Positions 4,009 to 22,005 of a stretch of DNA of 22,429 nt are shown one piece after another. Below the pieces are notes generated by a model. The model saw only the letters and a list, made by a program, of their open reading frames with translations, was not told the DNA's origin and searched no databases. The stretch spans positions 1 through 22,429 of the IMG/VR virus record IMGVR_UViG_3300035438_000431; one strand, given 5' to 3'. Position numbers and translations under genes: made by a program. Source of the DNA: a virus. The first letter of the stretch is position 1, and the number at the start of each line of letters is the position of its first letter.

Positions 4009-4259
4009 GTTATGAAAACAGAGAATACCTGATTTTTAACGCTAGTGATGTGGGTACGGTGGACTTCAACGAGGTCTTGGAGACTTCGGCTGAAACTCTT
4101 CGCTATTCCACAGACACAACCCGTACATTCATTAAGTGGGAGGGAGAAACGGCTCCCGCTTTCACGGGATCACTTACTGGAGTCTCAGGACCGTACACTC
4201 ATAGCGAAATCCTAAATATACTGTCAACCGAAGAGTGGTCACGGGCTGAAATTGAATAA
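4005..4259 (+). CDS. Small structural-cassette protein (84 residues)
   Basis: Starts inside the previous stop (ATGA) with a GGGAG ribosome-binding site. The segment FIKWEGETAPAFTGSLTG followed by HSEILNILSTEEW resembles the C-terminal end of the 409-residue fibre downstream, which has VKWSGGSAPVLTNTANKTD and ILNFLTYDGG. I read this as a stand-alone version of the same small beta module. A late-promoter box overlaps its stop codon at 4256-4262. Function unknown; a fibre-associated or capping piece is a reasonable inference. Confidence 0.7.
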   Translation: MSYENREYLIFNASDVGTVDFNEVLETSAETLRYSTDTTRTFIKWEGETAPAFTGSLTGVSGPYTHSEILNILSTEEWSRAEIE

Positions 4260-4262
4260 ATA
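4256..4262 (+). promoter_or_regulatory. T4-type late promoter (ATAAATA)
   Basis: ATAAATA matches the T4-superfamily late -10 element TATAAATA. The expected start point, about six bases downstream (near 4268), leaves an 11-base leader holding AGGAG (4270-4274) before the ATG at 4279. The box overlaps the stop codon of the preceding gene. Confidence 0.6.
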
Positions 4263-7935: not shown

Positions 7936-7960
7936 AAAATCTGGACATTTTTACTCGACA

Positions 7961-7989
7961 GCCTCTTCTAAATAATAGTATGAAGAGGC
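7961..7989. repeat. Inverted repeat spanning late promoter and protease start
   Basis: Perfect 8-bp arms GCCTCTTC (7961-7968) and GAAGAGGC (7982-7989) flank a 13-base loop holding most of the late-promoter box and the first bases of the ATG. It could act at DNA level on the promoter, or at RNA level on read-through transcripts by hiding the start. Confidence 0.6.
7968..7974 (+). promoter_or_regulatory. T4-type late promoter (CTAAATA) abutting start codon
   Basis: CTAAATA with the expected start point about six bases on, at 7980, which is the A of the protease ATG. No Shine-Dalgarno sequence lies upstream, so the transcript would be leaderless. Confidence 0.55.
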
Positions 7990-8744
7990 GCGTAGTCCAA
8001 TCTCTTCTGCTGGCTCTAGCACTCGTCTTGCTGCAAGCCTGTGTTCAAGATATAACTGCCGCTGCGCCGAAGAGCGTGGAGCCGCCGAAGAGCGGGGCAG
8101 TCGATCCAATGGCAGAAGCCCCTGTGGAGACTCAGTTCTTCATGAGGGGTTTCTCGCCGTTGGCGGCAGACGAGGAAGCCGCTGTGGGGCATCTAGAGGG
8201 CGAGAACGGGGAAGTAATAGGCAGTGCGGTTCTCATTGCTCCCGATGAAATCCTTACCGCAGGACACTGCCTAGACGATACGGGGGCAGCGTGGTTCTCT
8301 ACAGGCAACCACTGCTACAGAATAAGCAAATCCACCACCCATCCCCTTTATAAAATTGGTGACACCATGCTGTACGATGTGGCAGTGGCGTGGCTAGAGG
8401 AACCTTGCGGTGTTCAACCCCTTTGTGTGGTGACAGCACCCCATTATTTCACTCGTACCGAACCACTCACCGTTATAGGATTTGGTGGGGGTATTAAGCG
8501 TAGGAGCAATCCCAACACATTCCACTACTTTGGAACGGTGGTGGAAGACCCCACATACTTTAAGTTTATTCCCTTTGAGGGCACCGTTTGGTTTGGTGAC
8601 TCAGGTGGTGCGGTACTAGACTCCACAGGAGTACTTGTAGGAATTGTGTCATCATTCACAATATTCAACGGTCACCTGTACGAAAACTCCGCAACTCGTT
8701 TGGATCTCGTAAGCGATTGGATCGCAGAACAGAAGGGCAAATGA
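7980..8744 (+). CDS. Trypsin-like (S1) serine protease lipoprotein
   Basis: N-terminus MKRR, a hydrophobic stretch (9-18) and lipobox LQAC with Cys21 form a lipoprotein signal, so the mature enzyme should be lipid-anchored and face the periplasm or surface. A low-complexity Pro/Ala/Glu linker covers about 22-60. The catalytic domain has TAGHC (His96), DVAVAW (Asp133) and GDSGGAV (Ser208), a complete chymotrypsin-family triad, plus four Cys (97, 112, 143, 149) that could form disulphides after export. At 254 residues it is of normal size. The start is fixed by the signal peptide. There is no ribosome-binding site; a late promoter abuts the ATG. The stop overlaps a miniprotein start. Exported S1 proteases are unusual in phages; roles in superinfection exclusion, lysis or host-surface change are possible. 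Substrate unknown. Confidence 0.9.
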   Translation: MKRRVVQSLLLALALVLLQACVQDITAAAPKSVEPPKSGAVDPMAEAPVETQFFMRGFSPLAADEEAAVGHLEGENGEVIGSAVLIAPDEILTAGHCLDDTGAAWFSTGNHCYRISKSTTHPLYKIGDTMLYDVAVAWLEEPCGVQPLCVVTAPHYFTRTEPLTVIGFGGGIKRRSNPNTFHYFGTVVEDPTYFKFIPFEGTVWFGDSGGAVLDSTGVLVGIVSSFTIFNGHLYENSATRLDLVSDWIAEQKGK

Positions 8745-8827
8745 AACTCACCCAAATTCAGCGTGTGCTTCTTGGTGCTTGCAGTTTTTTAGTTGGTGTT
8801 TTACTGGCTCGCGCAGTAGGTTTCTAG
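8741..8827 (+). CDS. 28-residue membrane miniprotein
   Basis: ATG at 8741 overlaps the protease stop (ATGA). The peptide begins MKLTQIQRVLLGACS and continues as one hydrophobic helix (LLGACSFLVGVLLARAVGF), long enough for a single membrane span with a basic N-terminal end. Coupled translation with the protease is likely, since no separate ribosome-binding site is clear (AGAAGGG lies 4 bases upstream). Such small genes are hard to prove. If real, it may work with the lipoprotein protease, for example as a membrane partner or inhibitor. Confidence 0.4.
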   Translation: MKLTQIQRVLLGACSFLVGVLLARAVGF

Positions 8828-8836
8828 TATTGCACC

Positions 8837-8843
8837 ATAAATA
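8837..8843 (+). promoter_or_regulatory. T4-type late promoter (ATAAATA) abutting start codon
   Basis: ATAAATA, with the predicted start point about six bases downstream at 8849, the A of the resolvase ATG. No Shine-Dalgarno sequence is present between box and ATG, so a leaderless transcript is predicted. Confidence 0.55.
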
Positions 8844-8848
8844 CTTAC

Positions 8849-9427
8849 ATGATAGTAGCGGGAATAGATTACTCATTGTGTGGACCAGCCGTGTGCCTGT
8901 TCAAGTCGAACGCCACGGGGAAATTTTCATACAGTGGATGCTCATTTTTTTTCCTTACTGAGAACAAGCGGCAATCGGAAATTCGTTGCATGAATGTGTT
9001 TGGTGAGCGGCTGAGTGATTGGAACTCAGACGAACACCGCTACGAAAGCATTGCAGATTGGGCTGTGGACATTGTAATGGGCTGCTCCCATGTGGCTCTT
9101 GAAGGCTACGCGTACTCCGCTAGTGGCAGGGTGTTTCAGATTGCCGAGAACACAGGCATCTTAAAATATAAACTGTACCTGTTAAGCATTCCTGTTACGG
9201 TGATTCCTCCCACCGAAATAAAGAAGTTCGCCACAGGCAAGGGTAATGCAGACAAGAACGCCATGTACGCGGCGTTCTCGCATGAAACAGGAGTTAATCT
9301 AAAGTCGGTGCTGACACCAAAACGAGCAGACTCAGTGAGTCCTGTTTCGGATATTGTTGACTCGTACTACATCTGCAAGCGAATGTTTGAATCGCTTCCT
9401 GAAGACTTGCGCTGCGAAACCGATTAA
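8849..9427 (+). CDS. RuvC-like Holliday junction resolvase
   Basis: A 192-residue RNase H-fold nuclease expected to cut branched DNA before packaging. The four acidic residues of the RuvC active site are visible: Asp7 in AGIDYSL, Glu85 in ALEGYAYS, and Asp168/Asp171 in SDIVDSYYI. GKGNADKNAM (130-139) matches the conserved Lys-containing GNADK motif before the last acidic pair. The start cannot be further downstream because Asp7 lies in the first strand. T4 itself uses endonuclease VII for this job, so a RuvC-type enzyme would be a replacement. The gene ends on TTAA, sharing four bases with the stop of the convergent gene on the other strand. A late promoter abuts the ATG. Confidence 0.88.
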   Translation: MIVAGIDYSLCGPAVCLFKSNATGKFSYSGCSFFFLTENKRQSEIRCMNVFGERLSDWNSDEHRYESIADWAVDIVMGCSHVALEGYAYSASGRVFQIAENTGILKYKLYLLSIPVTVIPPTEIKKFATGKGNADKNAMYAAFSHETGVNLKSVLTPKRADSVSPVSDIVDSYYICKRMFESLPEDLRCETD

Positions 9428-10211: not shown

Positions 10212-10400
10212 TTATTTAGGCTTCATCTTCTTCCTACGAGCAATATTTGATTTGAGTCTTGGGTTGCCAGTCGGCATATCAGGAGGCAAACCTGCAATGC
10301 TGCCTCCTCCTGCGGTATTTGTGGGTGGTGGCGATGCCATTGGAGGTGGAATTTCTTCTGAAATAAATTTGAAGAATGGTTTTAGTTTACTGTGTGCCAT
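10212..10400 (-). CDS. Small Pro/Gly-rich conserved protein (62 residues)
   Basis: I chose the ATG at 10400 with GGAGGAA nine bases upstream, overlapping the previous gene by 14 bases. A TTG at 10418 would include that ribosome-binding site in the coding sequence. The N-terminus MAHSKLKPFFKFISEE is helical. It is followed by a Pro-rich stretch and TNTAGGGSIAGLPPDMP (27-43), then a strongly basic tail (ARRKKMKPK). The AGGG-x-IAGLPPD pattern recurs in small proteins of marine T4-like phages from my recollection; function unknown. Its last codons (CCT AAA TAA) contain the late-promoter box for the next gene. Confidence 0.7.
   Translation of the reverse strand: MAHSKLKPFFKFISEEIPPPMASPPPTNTAGGGSIAGLPPDMPTGNPRLKSNIARRKKMKPK
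10213..10219 (-). promoter_or_regulatory. T4-type late promoter (CTAAATA) inside a stop codon region
   Basis: On the minus strand CTAAATA overlaps the final Pro-Lys-stop of the 62-residue gene. The predicted start near 10207 gives a leader of about 33 bases for the holin candidate at 10174. Confidence 0.5.
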
Positions 10401-16349: not shown

Positions 16350-17402
16350 TTATTTAGACGATTTCAAGTGGCTAGTCATGCGGGGGGCGTTTCCTTTTCC
16401 GCTTTGCTGTGTTTCTGGTTCAACTCGTCTTTTTTGAATTACAGCGCGTTTTCTCTCTTTGGGAGTCATTTCTCCCACCGTCTCAGGAGTCTTGCTGCTT
16501 ACTTTGTTTGCAGGACGGCATTTAGGGTATTTACCCTTGGAGGTGTCGGATCGACCACATGGGGGGTATTCCCCCGTCTTGGGGTCTTTCTTGCCGCCAA
16601 TGTCCACCCACTTCTCTTTGAACCACCGCGAAAGGTCTTCGTCCATTTTACATGGAGGCGTGGGAAATATTTTATTGTGCTTGGAGAAGCCCCCTGTTTG
16701 ACCAGGAGTATCGGCTCTTCGCTTTTTCTTGTCGCTCTCAAGCAGTCGTTCTGCGGCGGCACGGTAAATATCTGTGTAGTTAATGCCTTCTTTAATCACC
16801 GTTTTCATACCCCGTTGTAGGTCTTGGTACAAGTCTTTAACATCAGAAGCATTGGCTTGGCGGGGCATTCCACTCTTGAAAGTCTTGAAGTCGTTTGCGG
16901 CGGCAGCAGCACGAAGTTTCGATGCGCTCATGCCCTGCACACCTGTTGCGTTCTCGTCTCGCTTTCCTGCACCCACAATCGTCAGGCTCTTTAGTTTAAG
17001 GCGGTCTTTTCTGCGAGTGGAACTCATCAAGTCTTTGAAAGCCTCGTATTGTCCTTGGCGATCCTCTCCACCAACGAGATGCACATGATCGTATCCCTTT
17101 TCGGCAAGCCAGTACAGCATCTCCACAGGGTTCTTGATTGTGTTCAAGTCCTTGAAGTTTGCGTCAGGAAAGAACCGCTTCAGGTACTTGAACTTTTGTC
17201 GGGGGGTGAGTGGGTTCTTCTTGGGGTCGTTTGTGCGACTGCTGAACATTGCGTACTCTGCGCCCAAACTCTTTGCCGTGCTAATGACCTTATCGACTAG
17301 CAGTTGGTGACCTGATGTGGGGGGTTGAAAGCGACCAAAGGCAACAACGATAGACTTGCCTTTAGTCTTGGGTTTAGCAATATCCCGAACTTTTTTTTCC
17401 AC
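16350..17402 (-). CDS. HxGH-type nucleotidyltransferase fused to Cys-containing domain
   Basis: I prefer GTG 17402 over GTG 17411: GAGGTGA lies five bases before 17402 but overlaps the earlier codon. The product has 350 residues. Residues 17-35 (SIVVAFGRFQPPTSGHQLL) hold the (T/H)xGH nucleotide-binding motif of adenylyl/cytidylyltransferases. HVHLVGGEDRQGQYEAF and MSASKLRAAAAANDF (158-172) match the later Asp-containing strand and the SxSxxR motif of the NMN/pantetheine-phosphate transferase fold. The reaction is nucleotidyl transfer to a phosphorylated acceptor; the acceptor is unknown. A separate C-terminal region (about 250-350) has RWFKEKWVDIG, then YPPCGRSDTSKGKYPKCRP and a Lys/Arg-rich end, a small module recalled from other viral proteins. 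It follows the KWDG protein after 42 bases. Confidence 0.85.
   Translation of the reverse strand: MEKKVRDIAKPKTKGKSIVVAFGRFQPPTSGHQLLVDKVISTAKSLGAEYAMFSSRTNDPKKNPLTPRQKFKYLKRFFPDANFKDLNTIKNPVEMLYWLAEKGYDHVHLVGGEDRQGQYEAFKDLMSSTRRKDRLKLKSLTIVGAGKRDENATGVQGMSASKLRAAAAANDFKTFKSGMPRQANASDVKDLYQDLQRGMKTVIKEGINYTDIYRAAAERLLESDKKKRRADTPGQTGGFSKHNKIFPTPPCKMDEDLSRWFKEKWVDIGGKKDPKTGEYPPCGRSDTSKGKYPKCRPANKVSSKTPETVGEMTPKERKRAVIQKRRVEPETQQSGKGNAPRMTSHLKSSK
16351..16357 (-). promoter_or_regulatory. T4-type late promoter (CTAAATA) at end of nucleotidyltransferase gene
   Basis: Minus-strand CTAAATA overlaps the final Ser-Lys-stop (TCT AAA TAA). The predicted start near 16345 gives a leader of about 15 bases carrying GGGAG (16343-16339) before the ATG at 16330. 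Confidence 0.6.
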
Positions 17403-17448: not shown

Positions 17449-18662
17449 GGTTTAGTCCAAGTCTTTTCTGTGGTCAGATTGCTGCGTGAAAAATCCAATC
17501 GGTCTACCAATTTAACTGCCTTGTTGCTCAAGCGGTCGATTGCAACAAATCCTTCAGGAGTAGTAACTCGGTATCCGCTCTTGTCCTTGATAAAGGTTCC
17601 TACGCCTGTTTGCGCGGAAGCCGTGGAAGCCATCTTCTGAAGAATCGTGAGTTTCAACTGAGCAAGCGCATTATGTAGTGCAAAAACACGAGCGAGTTGG
17701 TTTCTATTGGTACGAACCCAATCAATTGATGGAGTAGTTTTTGTGCTTGCTACTTTGCGTTTACCTTGTGCGCGGTCAAGCATGAATTGCAGGAGTTGAT
17801 TCACATCAGCATGAGAAGTAGCAACTCCTCCACGCACCAATCCGTTGATGTAGGTTTTCATGTCTATTTTAACTCCCTCGTTCTTGCCAATGCCGTTCAA
17901 GACAACACGCAAGTCAGCAGCAGTCTTGGTAAGACTAGCAATAGAGTTTTCAATTGTGCTGCGGTCGGAAGCGGAGAAGAGTCCTGATCCGTTTGCAAAC
18001 TTCATTGTGGCGTTATCAAACCAAACATCATTTACTTTTTTCATGTAACTAATATCGGGATTGAATCGTGCAGTCATGGTTTGAATGGATTCACCCTCGT
18101 ATGCGGTATGAAACACAATGCCAATCTTTGCTGCTGCCATGCGTTTTCCCAAATCACTTTTTGGATCCACGGCGTATTTAATAGTATTTGCTTGAAAGGT
18201 AAGGTAACTCTTGCCGTCAATAAGTTCCCGTTGCTTTGATTCAGAGTAGAACAACATATCGCCTTGCAGCACCCCACGAATACCAAGTTTGGAAAAATGC
18301 TTTAGCGCAAGTTTAAGTTTTAAGTTCAGTCCCTCTTGGGGATGGTTGGTATCAATATCTGAATTGGTGAAGTTTAGTTTGGGGATTGCATTGAACACAC
18401 TCTTTGTGCCAACAAAAAATCGACCGCTTTGGGGGTCGATTCCACAAATAATGGCGGGTGCGCCATCCCACTTTACCGTGATGTCGTATGCACTGGGCGC
18501 GTTTGCTGTGAGAGCCTCCACAACGCCCCGTAAAGCCTTTATGGCGCGTCCGAACCCTGCGTAGCCGCTGTTGAGGATCTCGTCCTCAATATGCTCCAAA
18601 TGGACATTCTTTCCACTTGATTTTTTAAATGCTTCGACTAGGTGTTCGGTAAATGCTCTCAT
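17445..18662 (-). CDS. DUF6267-like protein with ligase-type KWDG motif
   Basis: A 405-residue protein matching a family I know as DUF6267 from T4-like phages. Hallmarks: LEHIEDEILNSG (22-33), TVKWDGAPAIICGIDP (63-78), FFVGTKSVFNAIPKLN (82-97), GIRGVLQGDMLFYSES (127-142), LTFQANTIKYAV (154-165) and AKIGIVFHTAYEG (178-190). K64-W-D-G67 looks like motif I (KxDG) of covalent nucleotidyltransferases (DNA/RNA ligases, capping enzymes), where Lys takes AMP or GMP. VGTKS and GVLQGD fall about where motifs Ia and III would be. This is inference from pattern; no activity is known to me. A late promoter (18681-18687) with AGGAG in a 13-base leader precedes it, and an HxGH nucleotidyltransferase follows. 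Confidence 0.82.
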   Translation of the reverse strand: MRAFTEHLVEAFKKSSGKNVHLEHIEDEILNSGYAGFGRAIKALRGVVEALTANAPSAYDITVKWDGAPAIICGIDPQSGRFFVGTKSVFNAIPKLNFTNSDIDTNHPQEGLNLKLKLALKHFSKLGIRGVLQGDMLFYSESKQRELIDGKSYLTFQANTIKYAVDPKSDLGKRMAAAKIGIVFHTAYEGESIQTMTARFNPDISYMKKVNDVWFDNATMKFANGSGLFSASDRSTIENSIASLTKTAADLRVVLNGIGKNEGVKIDMKTYINGLVRGGVATSHADVNQLLQFMLDRAQGKRKVASTKTTPSIDWVRTNRNQLARVFALHNALAQLKLTILQKMASTASAQTGVGTFIKDKSGYRVTTPEGFVAIDRLSNKAVKLVDRLDFSRSNLTTEKTWTKP

Positions 18663-18672
18663 AATTCTCCTG

Positions 18673-18692
18673 TGCTTCTCTATTTAGAAGCA
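18673..18692. repeat. Inverted repeat around late promoter
   Basis: TGCTTCT (18673-18679) and AGAAGCA (18686-18692) form a perfect 7-bp inverted repeat with a six-base centre that contains most of the minus-strand CTAAATAG box. Confidence 0.5.
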
Positions 18693-19345
18693 TAGGAGTT
18701 CCGCTCGGAGCGATAGAACTTGATTGCATCTGCCAAATCTGCAATATATTCCCGTGGATCGGCTGTAAACACCTGACAGCCACCTTGTTCCACACCAATC
18801 AGAATGGCAATATTTCGGAGTTCCACTCCTGTGCGATCCTGCCACATAAGCGAATACGCCGTGGCTTGCATGAAGTAGTCTTGGATTGCGTCTTCGCTTT
18901 TCGGATATGTGGAAGACTTAAAGTCGATAACCGACGGCTTGTCATCAAAAAATCCAATGCAGTCCGTCCTTCCCGCCAATCCCACACGCTTCGACCACAG
19001 CGGAACTTCGATAGCGTGGATCGTGCCGATGCGGTCGATAGACTCCTGCATTTCGAAAAATAGGTCAGACTCGCAAGTCCCCGCATTCGTCTGTACGGAA
19101 CTGTGATCGTTTTTGAGATACGACTCGATAATTGAGTGAAGTTTCGTGCCACGGCTAAGTACTCTCTTTGATTCTTCGGGGTTTTCTCGCCGCCACTTGG
19201 CAAAGAAGGCTCGCTTCTTCCATCCCGTAACGGTGGTAACAGAGGGAAAAACGCCATCAGGGGTCTGATAGCGTCTGCCGCCGTCTGTGTCTACGCTGTT
19301 TACATTTTCGTTTAGCGTCACTAATTCATGATGAAAGGTTTTCAT
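18680..19345 (-). CDS. PD-(D/E)XK exonuclease (RecB/Cas4/MGME1-like)
   Basis: A 221-residue nuclease expected to degrade or trim DNA ends. Seen: PSVTTVTGWKK near the N-terminus (34-44), RGTKLHSIIESYL (65-77) with His70 and Glu74 as in RecB-type nucleases, AIEVPLWS (111-118), GLAGRTDCIGF (122-132) with metal-binding Asp128, SVIDFKSS (138-145) with the core Asp141/Lys143 pair, and QATAYSLMW (160-168), the QxxxY helix. The order and spacing fit the MGME1/Cas4-like branch that recurs in T4-like phages. The ATG follows the preceding stop directly (TAAATG), so translation is probably coupled. The gene end (TCT AAA TAG) carries the late promoter for the next gene. Confidence 0.87.
   Translation of the reverse strand: MKTFHHELVTLNENVNSVDTDGGRRYQTPDGVFPSVTTVTGWKKRAFFAKWRRENPEESKRVLSRGTKLHSIIESYLKNDHSSVQTNAGTCESDLFFEMQESIDRIGTIHAIEVPLWSKRVGLAGRTDCIGFFDDKPSVIDFKSSTYPKSEDAIQDYFMQATAYSLMWQDRTGVELRNIAILIGVEQGGCQVFTADPREYIADLADAIKFYRSERNSYASK
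18681..18687 (-). promoter_or_regulatory. T4-type late promoter (CTAAATA) at end of exonuclease gene
   Basis: Minus-strand CTAAATA overlaps the exonuclease Ser-Lys-stop codons. The predicted start near 18675 leaves a 13-base leader containing AGGAG before the ATG at 18662. Confidence 0.6.
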
Positions 19346-20383: not shown

Positions 20384-20923
20384 CTATTTCTTCTTTCGTG
20401 GTCGTATTCCGAATGTTAACCGCTTACGCATCGAGAGTTTTCGTTTTCTGTTTGCCTGTCCTCGTTTCGATCTAGCCTTTCGCGCAGATCGTTTGGAACG
20501 GAACTTTAGTTTTCGCAACTGGCTTACATTGCGGCGAACACAGGTACGCGCTCCGCGTTTCATGAATCCTGGTCCGCACTTGAACAGGATTCTTTTCTTG
20601 CCCTTGCGAACCACAATCTTGCGCTTTGCAGCAACCTCGTTCAGCATTTCACTCTCAATGTCAACCGATTCTTCTATGTCTTCGGAGTCATCGTCTTCAA
20701 TAGTGATTTCGGCTTCTTCCACGGGATCAAGAATGTAAATAACACCGTCCTTCTCTTCCCACTCAACATCATTATCTTCTAGATACGCAACCACATCTTC
20801 GTATGATAGGTTGGGCATATCAAGCACAATCTTTTCCTCTGTGAGTTCGGCATCAAACTCTTCGAAGATGATTCGCTGTAGTGAGCAAAAAGCGTGGTCG
20901 CGTAAGTCTTTGAATGGTTTCAT
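20384..20923 (-). CDS. Acidic/basic bipartite protein with Arg/Lys-rich tail
   Basis: I chose ATG 20923, which overlaps the upstream TGA as ATGA; a longer frame from 20959 runs inside the previous gene. The product has 179 residues. Residues 1-66 look globular, 67-95 are strongly acidic (EEAEITIEDDDSEDIEESVD), and 100-179 are strongly basic. The basic part holds FKCGPGFMKRGARTC (114-128) with two Cys, then SKRSARKARSKRGQANRKRK. The basic region resembles a tail I recall in other T4-like phage hypotheticals. DNA or RNA binding is likely from charge; no enzyme motif is visible. Confidence 0.72.
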   Translation of the reverse strand: MKPFKDLRDHAFCSLQRIIFEEFDAELTEEKIVLDMPNLSYEDVVAYLEDNDVEWEEKDGVIYILDPVEEAEITIEDDDSEDIEESVDIESEMLNEVAAKRKIVVRKGKKRILFKCGPGFMKRGARTCVRRNVSQLRKLKFRSKRSARKARSKRGQANRKRKLSMRKRLTFGIRPRKKK

Positions 20924-22005
20924 AGTGCTATTCCTAATTTGTCTTTGACCACATCCCAACGATACTTACTACGAAACATGAACTTTGCTTCAGTATAGTC
21001 TTCAAGTTTCTTGACTGTCCACGAAGGAACTCCATTAATCAAATCCAATTTAATTACACTAAGATCATTAAAAAGGACTCTTAGAAACGGAGAACAGTCA
21101 AAAACACCGTCTTTGTTTGCGTCAACGATAAACATTCCAAGACCGTATGCAATGTTATTACCTGTATATTTCTTACGCCCCTCGGTATATGCCTTCTTTG
21201 TAGGATCAGGCATTTTCGTTCTAGGAACTATGTAGTTGTCCATGAAGTAGTCAATCTTTCCTGTGCCTGTTACTCCCATTTTGTCTATAGTGGTGGTTCG
21301 CTTGGACTGCATGGTGACAGCAATGTCAGCCCAATTTACACTACTCATAGCATCTCTAACAGGTTTGGACATTTTTGATGGAAATTTCTTTGCACCAACA
21401 ATCATTCCTGTTACAAGAAAAAGACCTTCTATTATGGAATGTTCTCCAAGAGCCTTCATTACATTACGACCAAATATTACTTCTTTATTGGTTGTATTGA
21501 TTTTACTCTTTTCGATTCGTTCAGATATAACAGTAGGAGTCATTGTATTTGAAACTCCAGCACCAGTCTTTGAACTGTATCCAATGTACTTACCGTTTCT
21601 TTCCATGAAGAAGTCGAATAACTGGTAGTTTGTTCTGACAGGAAACACCACATTGTCGTATTTAGAACCACTGTTAACACTTATAAGGTGACACGGACCA
21701 AGTACTTCTCCAAAGTACTTTTCAATTTCGGTTTCCCAAACTTTTTCTCCGTGAGCATTCGCGGTTTCTATTAGTAGTTTTTTATTGTTTTTCTTCTCTT
21801 CGTAGTCAACAAGTTCCTTTAAGTACTTCTTGTAAGCAGCAGGAATGTTTGCTTTGCCCACAAGCGTCTTCAACTTGGTAGTGTACTCACTTACAGGAAC
21901 TACTATAAACTTGTCGTTTGGTTTTTGTACGAGACTACCTATTTCCTTCGCTGTTACAGAAGAAAATATTGCAGCAGGACCAAGTGCTAGATCAAGATCA
22001 GCCAT
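20920..22005 (-). CDS. Hypothetical protein, possible PD-(D/E)XK-like nuclease
   Basis: A 361-residue protein with a GAGGAG site before the ATG. Residues 88-150 show WETEIEKYFGEVLGP (90-104), then YQLFDFFMERNGKYIGYSSK (127-146) followed by TGAGVSN. A glutamate-rich helix, then an Asp on a strand (Asp131), then a short turn and SSK (Lys146) is the layout of many PD-(D/E)XK nucleases, but with Ser in place of the usual acid before Lys. DANKDGVFD (295-303) resembles an EF-hand loop but lacks the closing acid. I do not recognise a named family; nuclease is a weak inference. It overlaps the next gene by ATGA. Confidence 0.72.
   Translation of the reverse strand: MADLDLALGPAAIFSSVTAKEIGSLVQKPNDKFIVVPVSEYTTKLKTLVGKANIPAAYKKYLKELVDYEEKKNNKKLLIETANAHGEKVWETEIEKYFGEVLGPCHLISVNSGSKYDNVVFPVRTNYQLFDFFMERNGKYIGYSSKTGAGVSNTMTPTVISERIEKSKINTTNKEVIFGRNVMKALGEHSIIEGLFLVTGMIVGAKKFPSKMSKPVRDAMSSVNWADIAVTMQSKRTTTIDKMGVTGTGKIDYFMDNYIVPRTKMPDPTKKAYTEGRKKYTGNNIAYGLGMFIVDANKDGVFDCSPFLRVLFNDLSVIKLDLINGVPSWTVKKLEDYTEAKFMFRSKYRWDVVKDKLGIAL

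Follow-up and report, generated by a model that had tools for sequence, protein, structure and literature searches.

The cI mRNA of phage lambda is leaderless. Leaderless mRNAs also occur in mycobacteria (PMC4633059). In bacteriophage T4, the boxes of gp55-dependent late promoters (TATAAATA) lie at positions -13 to -6 (PMC1524935), and the late genes e, soc, 49 and I-TevI have start sites sequestered in hairpins (PMC3014915, PMC2988022). We found no description of leaderless late genes in T4-like phages in the open-access literature, and one may exist elsewhere. Here we analyzed a viral contig in which a serine protease gene and a ruvC gene each start immediately downstream of a T4-type late promoter box. 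From sequence comparison, we consider it highly probable that both are expressed as leaderless late mRNAs from gp55-type promoters, and that they belong to a recurrent class of such genes.

Late promoter boxes in the window

The window, the whole stretch of DNA analyzed, is a virus contig of 22,429 bases from a T4-like phage. The longest nearly identical contig, G001 (113,197 bases), carries homologues of T4 gp55, gp33, gp45, gp17, gp18, gp20 and gp23 as detected by tblastn; the genes for the gp55 sigma factor, the gp33 coactivator and the gp45 clamp lie in G001 outside the window. For the DUF6267 protein of the window, Methylophilales phages and cyanophages came up first. A search for the host by an exact tRNA-Glu match found nothing, and no Rfam match was found in the window.

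Features of the locus are listed in Table 1, where N followed by a number gives the nucleotides between box and ATG (N5, a 5-nt gap). The window boxes conform to the T4-type late promoter core, in which the T at -13 is often replaced (by C in Aeh1). Direct reading of the sequence agreed with the original prediction that two boxes stand at exactly N5 before ATGs without a Shine-Dalgarno (SD) sequence, as no SD core was found upstream of either. The three boxes cited for comparison were likewise confirmed to leave leaders with SD sequences. The protease and ruvC genes have neither an SD nor room for one between promoter and start, as expected of leaderless genes. Another late box, at 10213-10219 (-), lies 38 nt before a 145-aa gene (start 10174) with an AAGG core.

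Table 1. Coordinates of features at the protease-ruvC locus and of comparator promoters in the window
Feature	Position	Strand	Details
Conserved element GACATTTTT	7944-7952	+	Upstream of the box, at an unvarying 15 bp, in most protease homologues
Inverted repeat, left arm GCCTCTTC	7961-7968	+	Around the protease box; missing from RNA starting at 7980
Protease late promoter box CTAAATA	7968-7974	+	Followed by ATAGT and ATG 7980; predicted +1 at 7980
Lipoprotein trypsin-like serine protease gene, predicted leaderless	7980-8744	+	ORF; Pfam Trypsin, Trypsin_2; lipobox
Inverted repeat, right arm GAAGAGGC	7982-7989	+	First base is the G of ATG; pairing with the left arm confined to read-through RNA
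Small ORF, 28 aa, membrane-type (MKLTQIQRVLLGACSFLVGVLLARAVGF)	8741-8827	+	Start overlaps the protease stop (ATGA)
ruvC late promoter box ATAAATA	8837-8843	+	Followed by CTTAC and ATG 8849; predicted +1 at 8849
RuvC-like Holliday junction resolvase gene, predicted leaderless	8849-9427	+	ORF; phrog_159, E 4e-30; tblastn to annotated phage RuvC
Leadered comparator box	4256-4262	+	N16, AGGAG, ATG 4279
Leadered comparator box	16351-16357	-	N20, GGGAG, ATG 16330
Leadered comparator box	18681-18687	-	N18, AGGAG, ATG 18662
Hairpin around the 18681 box, DUF6267 gene	18667-18698	-	Arms 18698-18686 and 18679-18667

If the annotated starts were wrong, the true starts could lie elsewhere and have ordinary leaders. 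In some relatives a further in-frame ATG, two codons upstream, does overlap the box, but we regard misannotation as very improbable. As had been claimed, the starts are tied to protein features: the protease lipobox (LQAC) and the catalytic Asp7 of the RuvC-like protein (in MIVAGID) both lie close to the ATG, and MKR, like the lipobox, is invariant in the homologue profile A1. Nearby alternative starts in the window lack an SD, no in-frame ATG, GTG or TTG occurs upstream of the window RuvC (7 codons to a stop), and an independent annotation, that of phage HTVC008M, agrees with flush starts at 12 genes (see below).

The small ORF between the two genes is probably translated by coupling to the protease. 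It seems to have counterparts in relatives, some of which (e.g., L043) show an LLARAVG-like sequence before ruvC.

Taken on its own, the window is weak evidence for flush promoters, because near-matches to the box are not unusual in it (22 observed versus 15.2 expected) and one of its three TAAATA-N5-ATG occurrences is intragenic. This match, at 21651 (-), is out of frame with the gene that contains it and was treated as chance. We therefore relied on comparisons with related phages.

Box spacing in protease and RuvC homologues

Protease homologues collected with profile A1 (identity 41-100%) yielded 37 distinct upstream sequences. The box HTA[AG]ATA was located at N5 from the ATG in 35 of them and at N6 and N8 in one each, and none of the 37 contained an SD. 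Most of these genes are directly preceded by an intrinsic terminator. The sequence between terminator and box is variable, except for an ATTTTT tract whose distance from the box stays at 15 bp; this element (GACATTTTT in the window) could be a -35-like or an upstream element.

The tract, which lies near -30, and the occurrence of the variant box CTAGATA among the protease homologues would fit another reading, in which the box is the -10 element of a sigma-70-type (early or middle) promoter, giving an RNA that is leaderless but not late. We judge this unlikely, given that the ATTTTT element was not seen at ruvC in the window sequence, that the variant HTAGATA also precedes a few leadered, SD-bearing genes in these contigs, and that the N5 genes of HTVC008M are mostly virion genes, which are late genes in T4. 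A gp55-type late promoter thus remains the preferred assignment.

The RuvC sample was more heterogeneous. Among 52 distinct upstream sequences (identity 45-100%), the box was found at N5 in 26, at N4 in 3 and at N8-9 in 8, and 15 had no box nearby. Homologues with at least 73% identity were mostly at N5, with one subclade at N8-9, for which the predicted leader would be about 3-4 nt. An SD-like core was present in only 1 of the 37 sequences with a near box versus 9 of the 15 without one (Fisher p 1e-5). What lies upstream of ruvC varies by lineage: in some it is the protease operon, in others a divergently oriented gene that carries an SD of its own, and in others a terminator (L048, L087-L089 and L092-L094). 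The box and its spacing persist despite these changes. The conserved spacing expected from the original prediction, as opposed to an SD with varying distance, therefore held in relatives for the most part: throughout nearly all protease homologues, and for ruvC in the N5 half of the sample, with the N8-9 subclade and the SD-bearing sequences without a near box counting against it.

Flush boxes across T4-like phages

Using a simple gene caller, we tallied the gaps between HTAAATA and candidate ATGs in 13 T4-like genomes or contigs; gene calls outside deposited annotations were made in this analysis. In eight of these (G001, G004, G005, G006, G008, Melnitz, HTVC008M and Mosig), 36 boxes were found at N5, none at N3, 5 at N4 (all in G008) and 2 at N6. 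Of the N5 starts, 34 of 36 lacked an SD, whereas boxes at N12 or more mostly came with one. The same tally found no boxes at N3-N6 in T4, Aeh1, Syn9, DSL-LC02 or G007, and raw pattern counts, made without the gene caller, were 0-5 in Cr30, DLP_6, S-PM2 and KVP40.

When all candidate starts in the eight genomes or contigs were considered, 37 boxes lay at exactly N5 versus 1.67 expected from the box rate 60-200 nt upstream (Poisson p 3e-36, a value that overstates independence because related phages share some genes), a difference that rules out chance. Twelve other A4T2 hexamers used as controls gave at most 3 each at N5, and the N4-N6 genes fell into about 30 separate protein groups by blastp. 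The start codon at N5 was ATG throughout, except for one GTG in G007, which fits leaderless initiation, though ATG is common anyway. In many copies an intrinsic terminator lies immediately before the box, so that there is no space for a leader.

By sequence comparison, three cultured marine phages share the predicted N5 arrangement, as do dozens of uncultured relatives, with the spacing almost exact. The original prediction, that leaderless late mRNAs are used for chosen genes, thus appears sound for protease and ruvC but was too narrow in scope, as the genes would form a recurrent class in several phage lineages.

G008 is an AT-rich relative with about ten N4-N5 starts (L208-L213), several of them for proteins of more than 700 aa. 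Since N4 is as common as N5 there, its transcription start point may be shifted by one base. At 20624-20638 of G001 (L020), a CTAAATA-N5-ATG opens a 27-codon ORF, which is followed by a gene with an SD; this is possibly a leaderless upstream ORF, possibly a chance match. The 553-aa N5 gene of G001 was considered as a terminase and rejected, the protein being tail-fibre-like.

Phage-encoded bS21 was rejected as an explanation of the leaderless class by the distribution of its homologues, which are present in Melnitz, HTVC008M and Mosig and gave no significant match in G001, G004, G005, G006 and G008 (some of which are partial contigs). Permuted tmRNA genes were observed in L024 (2595-2872), L188, L206 and L215; the Melnitz tmRNA also matches the alphaproteobacterial tmRNA model, and the host of Melnitz belongs to Methylophilales.

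HTVC008M, a cultured Pelagibacter phage annotated by others, offered independent gene starts. Twelve of its deposited CDS starts are N5 ATGs (6280, 7562, 11972, 16007(-), 18916(-), 18943, 19456, 31132, 49760, 75559, 75830 and 142360), including those of gp2 (DNA end protector), gp4 (head closure), the tail tube cap, a baseplate wedge subunit, a tail completion protein and the tape measure. The gp2 and gp4 genes are divergent, with two boxes placed back to back in the 26 nt between them, so that any leader would have to begin within the opposite gene. Late promoter prediction was attempted without success in a 2020 survey of SAR11 myophages (PMC7029224). Flush boxes may, we infer, partly explain that failure. 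For a dozen annotated genes in this SAR11 phage, core virion genes included, transcription starts are now predicted with single-base precision.

Hairpins and read-through RNA

The inverted repeat around the protease box would act only in RNA that reads through from upstream. Such RNA would fold over the start codon with a z-score of about -3 relative to mononucleotide shuffles, in which only the upstream 30 nt were shuffled. A conserved hairpin inside the first protease codons was dismissed, being no stronger than synonymous recoding (mean z -0.14). The repeat has a leadered counterpart in the DUF6267 gene starting at 18662, where the hairpin would mask the AGGAG in read-through RNA and not in late RNA (z -5.2, measured in the G001 twin). 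Box-spanning hairpins are not general among leaderless starts: z fell below -3 for 6 of 41 leaderless starts versus 8 of 125 leadered ones, and the window ruvC has none. At Mosig 92996 (-), in L273, the late box occupies the loop of an almost perfect inverted repeat (GTTGCATAC...GTATGCAAC; z about -7 to -8), the right arm of which contains the start codon.

Co-transcription from upstream is conceivable, as the protease gene closely follows an RNR gene and ruvC follows the protease in most window-like contigs. Ribosomes could then initiate without an SD on the AU-rich, unstructured leader of a longer transcript, and the box would be incidental or would serve only genes further down. This is improbable, even more so than a sigma-70-type promoter: an intrinsic terminator directly precedes the box in many relatives, the upstream RNA of HTVC008M gp2 and gp4 would be antisense, N5 boxes far exceed the chance level (37 seen against 1.7), and read-through RNA at the protease would fold over the start codon.

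Proposed mechanism and relation to known systems

In the reading we favor, a gp55-like sigma factor would recognize both window boxes as T4-type late promoters. Since the T4 box occupies -13 to -6 and +1 is the sixth base after it, +1 at N5 would be the A of AUG, so that the leaders of the protease and ruvC late mRNAs would be 0-1 nt long and initiation would proceed by recognition of the 5'-terminal AUG instead of an SD. A T4-like +1 is an assumption for these diverged gp55 proteins, and the RuvC N8-9 subclade and the frequency of N4 in G008 count against a leader of exactly zero everywhere. Late genes of these phages would accordingly fall into two classes, those with an SD-bearing leader and those whose start codon directly follows the box. 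The recurrence of the flush arrangement suggests that ribosomes translate a set of late genes with no ribosome-binding leader. As read-through RNA has no SD and its start codon is sometimes buried in a hairpin, we propose a timing lock as the benefit, whereby protein would be made only from late-promoter transcripts. Position of +1, leaderless initiation and timing lock are all inferred. More tentatively, and with some doubt, leaderless initiation might be a second general route of late expression, in which the flush promoter ties translation to gp55 transcription and keeps upstream read-through silent, perhaps alongside a late shift in which mRNAs the host ribosomes select. Between related phages, late genes are predicted to change from leadered to leaderless or back, so that the purpose of a leaderless mRNA becomes testable.

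Compared with T4, the window phage shares the core box, the phage group and, through G001, homologues of gp55, gp33 and gp45, and there is no evident -35 element at ruvC. It differs in placement, since none of 27 T4 boxes lies 3-6 nt from an ATG, whereas the two window boxes are flush with the start codon. Like lambda cI and the leaderless mRNAs of mycobacteria, the transcripts proposed here would have a 5'-terminal AUG, no SD and starts that are almost only ATG; unlike those, they would be linked to a phage late sigma promoter and would come from a group of late genes spread over several lineages of T4-like phages. The hairpin at gene 18662 is of the same type as those of T4 gene e and I-TevI (PMC3014915, PMC2988022). 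In those T4 genes the hairpin contains or adjoins the late promoter and only read-through RNA folds, as predicted here for gene 18662 (SD) and the protease (AUG), both of which have an inverted repeat around the late promoter. The T4 hairpin genes, however, are leadered, with the SD and/or the start codon hidden, whereas the protease hairpin would hide the start of a predicted leaderless gene.
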